From Spirochaetales bacterium (GTDB lineage: Bacteria > Spirochaetota > Spirochaetia > Sphaerochaetales > Sphaerochaetaceae), in NCBI GenBank assembly GCA_018433865.1, contig JAHDQJ010000006.1, positions 124,001 to 188,000 of the forward strand: a stretch of 64,000 nucleotides of DNA, written 5' to 3'. The translations under genes were made by a program, and so were the position numbers. Below the pieces are notes generated by a model. The model was not told the origin of the DNA and searched no databases. It saw nothing but the letters and a program-made list of their open reading frames with translations. Numbering within the stretch: position 1 is the stretch's first letter; each line of letters begins with the position of its first letter. This document shows, in pieces, positions 16,948 through 18,503 of this stretch.

Positions 16948-16976
16948 AAGATACCGGATACCCTCATCCGGGTCAA
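16948..16976 (-). promoter_or_regulatory. promoter of the secreted-protein gene, predicted leaderless
   Basis: On the minus strand TTGACC (16976-16971), a 17-nt spacer and TATCTT (16953-16948) end 7 nt before the ATG at 16940. Transcription would begin at or within a base or two of the start codon. The -35 overlaps the stop codon of the upstream antiporter gene. Confidence 0.6.
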
Positions 16977-18220
16977 TCGATCATCCCCGAAACGCGCCCA
17001 TCTTGTTCCGGATGATCGGACCGGACATTGAGGAAGCGCTTTCCCGCCCACTCGATCGCCCATGCCCCGCTCGGTGCGGTGAGGACGATGCTCATCACTG
17101 CGATCGCGAGGATGGTCTCACCCGGTCCGGTCGGCATGCCCTTCGATGCCATGGCTGCAAGCGGAGCCGATCCGATGGCCGCTTGCACGGTTGCCTTGGG
17201 GAGGTAAGAGATGACGATAAACAATCGTTCCTTCCACGTGAAAGGCGAGCCTAGCGTACACAGGGCCGTACCGATGGAACGGAAGACCAGCGCGATCATG
17301 ATCAACGCAGCTCCCGCGAATCCTGCTTCGGCAGCAGCCTTGAGATTCACTTGTGCACCTACCATCGCGAAGAGGATGATCTCCGCGAATACCCAAATCT
17401 TGCCCAGCTTGAGCGAAAGTTCATGGGCCATCCGCTCCCGTTTCTCCAGGATGATGAACCCGATGGCCATCACTGCAAGCAAGGCCGCGAACGGGATGCG
17501 TTTGGCCTCAAGCACATCACCGAGGTGGACCAGGATGATCGCCACGCCGATGACCGTCAGGGCCCGTTTGGTCGCCCGGGGGTTGTGCCGGTCGAATATC
17601 CGGTAGAGGATCGTACCGGTCGCCAGTCCCGCGATGATACCGACGAGCACTGCAATCGGGATGCTTGCGACCATCCAAGCCAGATTCACCTTCATGCCGG
17701 TATACATGCCGATCAAGACACTGTAGGCAACGATCACCACCACATCGTCGATGCTCGCTGCAGCGAGGATGAGCGTGGGGATTCCTTTGTCGGTTCCTCG
17801 TTTCTCATGCATGAACCGTACCATCATGGGAACGACCACGGCTGGCGAGACTGCTCCGAGTATGCATCCGAGGATTGCCGATTCCATGGTGGTCAATCCC
17901 ACCAGGTGCGGACCGAGGAGAGTGATTGCAAGAGCCTCGAATGTCGCAGGAACGAACGCGAGCAACAGCGCTTGCCGTCCGACCTTGTGCAAGCTCTCCC
18001 GCGAGAGTTCGAAGCCTGCTCGCAAAAGGATGACGATCAGTGCGATCATCCGTAGATCTGAGCCGACAGAGAGCATCTGAGGATTCATGATGCCGAAAAA
18101 CGATGGTCCCAACAGTACCCCTACCAACAGCATGCCGATGAGGCCGGGTACCCGGATCTTCCTGAATGCCCAGTCGACCAAGAGACACAAGATGATGATC
18201 TCAGCCAGATTCATTGCCAT
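16973..18220 (-). CDS. cation:proton antiporter (CPA family) under fluoride riboswitch control
   Basis: The 415-residue membrane protein has about 12 helices in a CPA/KefB-like arrangement (RVPGLIGMLLVGVLLGPSFFG, LRAGFELS, AAASIDDVVVIVAYSVL with the paired acidic residues of the ion site). Family members exchange Na+ or K+ for protons. The mRNA leader carries a fluoride riboswitch, so the protein is probably made when fluoride is high. Antiporters of this broad class are known members of fluoride regulons. GGGAGGATAGGA precedes the ATG and is the element the riboswitch appears to mask. Confidence 0.9.
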   Translation of the reverse strand: MAMNLAEIIILCLLVDWAFRKIRVPGLIGMLLVGVLLGPSFFGIMNPQMLSVGSDLRMIALIVILLRAGFELSRESLHKVGRQALLLAFVPATFEALAITLLGPHLVGLTTMESAILGCILGAVSPAVVVPMMVRFMHEKRGTDKGIPTLILAAASIDDVVVIVAYSVLIGMYTGMKVNLAWMVASIPIAVLVGIIAGLATGTILYRIFDRHNPRATKRALTVIGVAIILVHLGDVLEAKRIPFAALLAVMAIGFIILEKRERMAHELSLKLGKIWVFAEIILFAMVGAQVNLKAAAEAGFAGAALIMIALVFRSIGTALCTLGSPFTWKERLFIVISYLPKATVQAAIGSAPLAAMASKGMPTGPGETILAIAVMSIVLTAPSGAWAIEWAGKRFLNVRSDHPEQDGRVSGMID

Positions 18221-18282
18221 GTCCTATCCTCCCGATCCGCGACCGGATGCGCATGACGGAAACGCAGTGCGGAGTCTGTGAT

Positions 18283-18348
18283 GGATAGGAGTCATCAGCG
18301 GCTTGTCGCCACGGTTGCTGCCGGGAAGCAGAGGCGGACCCCATCGCC
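18283..18348 (-). promoter_or_regulatory. fluoride riboswitch (crcB motif) of the antiporter gene
   Basis: Read on the minus strand, the leader begins GGCG-ATGGGGTC-CGCC (P1 hairpin, 18348-18333). A small inserted hairpin CTGC/GCAG, the conserved AACC, a second stem GTGGC-GACAA-GCCGC and TGATGACTCCTATCC follow. GGGGTC in the first loop pairs with GACTCC in the 3' strand (one G-U), the pseudoknot that defines fluoride aptamers. The order and spacing match the crcB consensus, except for the inserted hairpin. TCCTATCC (18290-18283) is exactly complementary to GGATAGGA in the Shine-Dalgarno region (18229-18222). Fluoride binding should therefore free the ribosome site, an ON switch. Confidence 0.88.
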
Positions 18349-18356
18349 TGCGCGTC

Positions 18357-18385
18357 ATCATATGCAAGGAGGGTGAAAAGGTCAA
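18357..18385 (-). promoter_or_regulatory. promoter of the riboswitch-antiporter transcript
   Basis: On the minus strand TTGACC (18385-18380), a 17-nt spacer and TATGAT (18362-18357) place the start near 18349, immediately before the first base of the aptamer. This supports transcription of the riboswitch from its own promoter. Confidence 0.75.
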
Positions 18386-18503
18386 TTCTTCCGATGTACG
18401 GGATTCTGCCTGACCGGTGCAGATCCAAAATATCCTATGGCAGTAGTGCGGCAGACCAATGGCGGTCTGTCCGAAATGTGCTAGAATCGGAGCGGGGAGC
18501 ATC

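Follow-up and report, generated by a model that had tools for sequence, protein, structure and literature searches.

A fluoride riboswitch with a predicted Shine-Dalgarno mask upstream of an NHA-type antiporter gene in a Spirochaetales bacterium

The antiporter gene and its leader

The window, the whole 64,000-nucleotide stretch of Spirochaetales DNA analysed here, encodes on its minus strand a cation/proton antiporter that is preceded by a structured leader with the following features.

18357–18385, minus strand: sigma-70-type promoter, TTGACC-17-TATGAT (10 of 12 consensus matches)
18279–18357, minus strand: fluoride riboswitch aptamer, RF01734 (42.1 bits against a gathering score of 34; model positions 1–64 of 64)
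18333–18348, minus strand: P1 stem, GGCG (18348–18345) with CGCC (18336–18333), loop ATGGGGTC (from sequence, model alignment and folding)
18342–18337, minus strand: 5′ strand of the pseudoknot, GGGGTC, in the P1 loop
18318–18331, minus strand: extra hairpin, CTGC-TTCCCG-GCAG, between P1 and AACC
18316–18313, minus strand: AACC
18298–18312, minus strand: P3 stem, GTGGC (18312–18308) with GCCGC (18302–18298), followed by TGAT and then GACTCC
18288–18293, minus strand: 3′ strand of the pseudoknot, GACTCC
18283–18290, minus strand: anti-Shine-Dalgarno strand, TCCTATCC, sharing 18290–18288 with the pseudoknot strand
18227–18232, minus strand: probable Shine-Dalgarno sequence (SD), GGAGGA, 6 nt upstream of the ATG (from sequence)
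18222–18229, minus strand: GGATAGGA, complementary to the anti-SD strand and made up of the SD's 3′ half plus spacer
16973–18220, minus strand: cation/proton antiporter, 415 amino acids, NHA/SLC9B-like, PF00999 (155 bits)

Judged from its sequence, the 415 amino acid protein is an NHA/SLC9B-type cation/proton antiporter. Besides PF00999 it matched the CPA2 family, with a score below that family's cut-off, and its closest solved structures were those of NHA2/SLC9B2 (7p1i/7b4l, E 2e-43), whose Asp-Asp pair (SIDD) was conserved in the alignment. NHA2/SLC9B2 is a eukaryotic exchanger and we know of no fluoride control acting on it.

Direct reading of the minus strand over 18385–18218 revealed the promoter, P1, its loop, AACC, the second stem and both pseudoknot strands to be where an earlier note on this DNA had placed them. 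Transcription probably starts near 18350, just 5′ of P1, and a TTGACC-17-TATCAT/TACAAT layout was likewise found 5′ of the aptamer in relatives. The comparison with the Rfam crcB model (RF01734) that the earlier note had suggested was made as a covariance model scan of the whole window, and gave a match over the full model length with an E value of 2.6e-8. A single RF01734 copy is present in the genome as a whole, and no gene other than the antiporter was found to follow a fluoride riboswitch in it. By complementarity, GGGGTC and GACTCC could form a pseudoknot of six pairs, one of them G-U, with a duplex energy of −7.4 kcal/mol. The aptamer lies in the 5′ UTR, 58 nt upstream of the antiporter gene. 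On these features of sequence the leader carries a genuine fluoride riboswitch of the known class, sharing with the RF01734 crcB motif P1, the GGGGTC loop, AACC, P3, TGATGACTCCTA, the pseudoknot, a site in the 5′ UTR and a known class of gene. A second GACTCC was present downstream of the pseudoknot strand (18276–18271); it was considered as a decoy and no support was found for any role. A 102 amino acid frame running across the riboswitch (18532–18224) was dismissed as a chance frame.

Predicted pairing of the pseudoknot strand with the Shine-Dalgarno region

The sequence bore out the earlier observation that TCCTATCC (18290–18283) is an exact complement, over 8 bp, of GGATAGGA (18229–18222). 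The masking of the SD that had been claimed from this stood as regards the presence of the helix, which covers just the 3′ half of the SD together with the spacer up to the AUG. Folding of the free RNA predicted 18290–18283 to be paired to 18229–18222 with probabilities of 0.86–1.0, and 18229–18223 to be paired to 18283–18289 with a probability of 1.0. A docked state was then modelled with P1, the hairpin and P3 imposed, and with the pseudoknot strands and the following UA, the U of which we count as an aptamer nucleotide (compare A40-U48 of the T. petrophila structure), barred from other pairing. With the docked aptamer imposed, the computed cost of opening GGAGGA fell from 7.1 to 3.8 kcal/mol and that of opening the region from the SD to the AUG from 12.3 to 6.9 kcal/mol; as the model is nested and leaves out the energies of the pseudoknot, Mg and fluoride, only the direction of these changes is meaningful. 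The SD was just partly freed in this model, with the 3.8 kcal/mol remaining to be paid, and the docking constraint itself cost 8.8–11.2 kcal/mol in the nested calculation without pseudoknot, Mg and fluoride terms. Folded as one RNA, the whole leader was no more stable than its shuffles (z 0.58), which says nothing for a switch.

In the model the anti-SD helix excludes the ligand-bound fold, as three nucleotides of its 8 bp (18290–18288) are common to the pseudoknot. The proposal of two mutually exclusive pairings forming a translational ON switch agreed with these predictions, in that the helix dominated in the free RNA and was relieved by the imposed aptamer, and no terminator-like site was found within 18150–18480. 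Because no terminator was seen, the leader is best read as a translational ON switch, and the riboswitch very probably turns on translation of the antiporter by unmasking the SD. Without fluoride, 18290–18283 would pair with 18229–18222 and close the SD and spacer; with Mg-fluoride, GGGGTC (18342–18337) would capture GACTCC (18293–18288) in the pseudoknot, which would deprive the anti-SD strand of its first three nucleotides and free the ribosome site. This proposal is built on the observed family match, the complements with their overlap and the conserved gene order, and on computed pairing energies; fluoride binding, translational switching and transport activity are what we infer in it.

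Ribosome sites of the genome and leaders of relatives

Part of the SD match comes free, since the CTCCT of the aptamer is inherently complementary to an SD, and many ribosome binding sites (RBSs) of the genome have a 4–6 nt complement to the strand. As background, 364 regions chosen for a strong SD were taken from the window and 20 stretches of 20 kb of the same genome. A perfect complement of at least 8 nt to the anti-SD strand was present in three of them, the antiporter gene included, and the duplex energy of the antiporter RBS was borderline relative to the genome, at about 5.5%, whereas the perfect 8-mer stood at 0.8%. Another RBS region of the window genome, CAATTCATGAAGGAGTCATCA, is perfectly complementary to the aptamer 3′ strand over 11 nt (TGATGACTCCT), which is probably due to chance.

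RF01734 was found in 32 and the antiporter in 35 of 139 family genomes, and aptamer and antiporter were adjacent in all 29 genomes that have both, as judged from coordinates compared by hand. In CUCC-type relatives the pairing of the pseudoknot strand was stronger with the native SD region than with regions that had been swapped or drawn at random. Native strand/RBS pairs of relatives averaged −12.3 kcal/mol vs −10.8 kcal/mol for swapped pairs, and 18 of 20,000 permutations reached the native mean. Against genome RBSs the native pairing gave a combined Fisher p of 8e-7 over 13 lineages, a value that is too small because these lineages are related. The pairing registers nevertheless differed among CUCC-type relatives: both same-genus genomes had CTCCT-A-CCC with GGG-A-AGGAG (−13.8 kcal/mol), L025 had AACTCCTA/TAGGAGTT, L028 had AACTCCT/AGGAGTT and L006 had TGATGACTCCT with AGGAGCATCATCA. 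Little SD pairing was seen in the CUCC-type leader L049, and in L011 and L016, of the same type, SD pairing was present but the simple docked model did not relieve it. Direct SD masking, which the earlier note had singled out as worth attention, is therefore not special to this locus, since the same strand is predicted to pair with the SD in relatives too.

Relatives with GACTTC in place of GACTCC lacked SD pairing, L019 excepted. Three of this type (L020, L027 and L030) had a hairpin formed from the pseudoknot strand and followed by a T run, and such a hairpin and T run were seen by eye in L036. With SD pairing in the CUCC type and a hairpin and T run in the GACUUC type, it seems to be the pseudoknot strand that switches in both platforms, acting against the SD or within a terminator. 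Elsewhere in the phylum, apparent self-masking was noted by eye in L127 (CTCCTGC-TAAT-GCGGGAG, 5′ of a CLC-F-like gene) and in L123 (CTCCTACT/AGTAGGAG).

The hairpin that separates P1 from AACC, inserted relative to the Rfam RF01734 model, had likewise been put forward as noteworthy. It was rejected as a novelty because the J1-3 inserts of relatives were also hairpins: 19 of 23 distinct inserts, differing in sequence, were scored as hairpins with 3 bp or more, a count that takes in L019, whose insert was wrongly cut so that P1 fell within it. No J1-3 insert was present in L006 and L023. The extra hairpin is an optional stem that is frequent in this bacterial family.

Two readings compete with the translational switch. 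The leader could be a true fluoride sensor acting mainly on transcription, through a weak terminator or through Rho acting on the leader, which is not translated, as many fluoride riboswitches have a predicted terminator that overlaps the motif (PMC2864571) and the divergent GACTTC relatives that carry the T-run hairpins are also antiporter-linked. However, the stretch around this leader has no terminator-like site and its pseudoknot strand is predicted to pair with the SD instead, and we consider control of this kind unlikely here. It is very improbable that the complement to the SD has no regulatory role at this locus and simply follows from the conserved CTCCT, a sequence similar to the 16S rRNA anti-SD. 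The short complements at many genome RBSs would favour this explanation, but the 8-bp match runs beyond the conserved CTCCTA and is as rare among RBSs as given above, and native pairs exceed swapped ones among relatives. SD unmasking by fluoride, the preferred reading, sets this leader apart from the many RF01734 members with a described terminator, as far as the predicted SD masking goes. A translational fluoride riboswitch has an archaeal example (Speed et al. 2018, according to its citation in PMC11077080), which the present leader would resemble, at the level of that citation, in fluoride-responsive control of translation.

Fluoride exporters and the role of the antiporter

Antiporters are already known riboswitch targets, which makes the target gene ordinary and agrees with the statement in the earlier note that fluoride riboswitches control some of them. 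They are reportedly the commonest riboswitch-associated class after fluoride exporters and have been read as serving pH homeostasis (PMC11139923), and a fluoride riboswitch also precedes a Na+/H+ or K+/H+ antiporter gene in the C. difficile CD0656-7 operon (PMC11477304). That operon also encodes a CLC-type protein, whereas the antiporter gene of the window has no such partner and CLC-F was not found. In several relatives (L094–L096; also G092, G100 and G102) a CLC gene was located about 5–7 kb from the riboswitch-antiporter locus, and a conserved gene of about 354 amino acids was divergent from the antiporter at these loci. A second riboswitch of G092 (L012, G092:C1:2695118-2695201) precedes an apparent decayed antiporter start (ATGGCCTTCAGTCTATC, then no long frame).

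CrcB/Fluc (PF02537) was absent from the window genome (G000, 99.9% complete) and its congeners G123 and G124, and CrcB was absent from 135 of the 139 family genomes, including every antiporter genome. The CLC-F probe was a 429 amino acid protein whose best solved match was CLC-F 6d0j (133 bits vs 40 for the best chloride CLC). With this probe CLC-F was absent from the same three genomes of the window genus and present in 77 of the 139 family genomes, namely in 12 of 35 antiporter genomes vs 65 of 104 others (Fisher p 0.006, uncorrected for relatedness), so that 23 of the 35 lacked it. The sole CLC of the window genome (L043; 590 amino acids, GHGVP and GKEGP motifs, ClcA-like) was rejected as a fluoride exporter, its best solved match being ClcA at 155 bits vs 56 for CLC-F. 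The antiporter itself matched PF00999 only, and not PF02537 or CLC-F. In genus g13 the riboswitch lies 5′ of crcB in G080, which has no antiporter of this type, unlike its congeners G078 and G081, where it lies 5′ of the antiporter. The riboswitches of G080 (L029 and L100) precede, in one case, a crcB pair and, in the other, a 458 amino acid frame that resembles MutS by eye.

The absence of exporters and this gene pattern fit with a main role of the antiporter in fluoride defence here. Whether that role goes beyond pH defence concerns the function of the protein and not the switch; that the NHA-type antiporter, as the main fluoride defence of this lineage, itself exports fluoride is unlikely. 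The lack of both known exporters in the window genus, the many antiporter genomes of the family without them and the occurrence of either crcB or the antiporter behind the g13 riboswitch would speak for export. Against this, the sequence is that of a cation/proton antiporter with the Asp-Asp pair of cation exchangers, the literature interprets such antiporters in terms of pH homeostasis (PMC11139923), a single riboswitch operon of C. difficile encodes an NhaP-type antiporter together with a CLC (PMC11477304), 12 antiporter genomes also carry CLC-F, and these genomes may have exporters of other, unrecognised kinds. pH homeostasis is the favoured role.

The riboswitch is a well-built, ordinary addition to a known class before a known target class, with predicted SD masking and an extra hairpin that are common in the family. 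The locus offers a clear case of a translational fluoride riboswitch in which one conserved strand would alternate between pseudoknot and SD block, and the apparent use of that strand against the SD in the CUCC type or in a terminator in the GACUUC type suits the study of platform change around a fixed aptamer. As the genome has no known exporters, its one less usual feature, the function of antiporters linked to the riboswitch, until now interpreted as pH defence, is directly testable in this organism; if the antiporter did export fluoride, fluoride exporters would comprise a third class in addition to Fluc and CLC-F.
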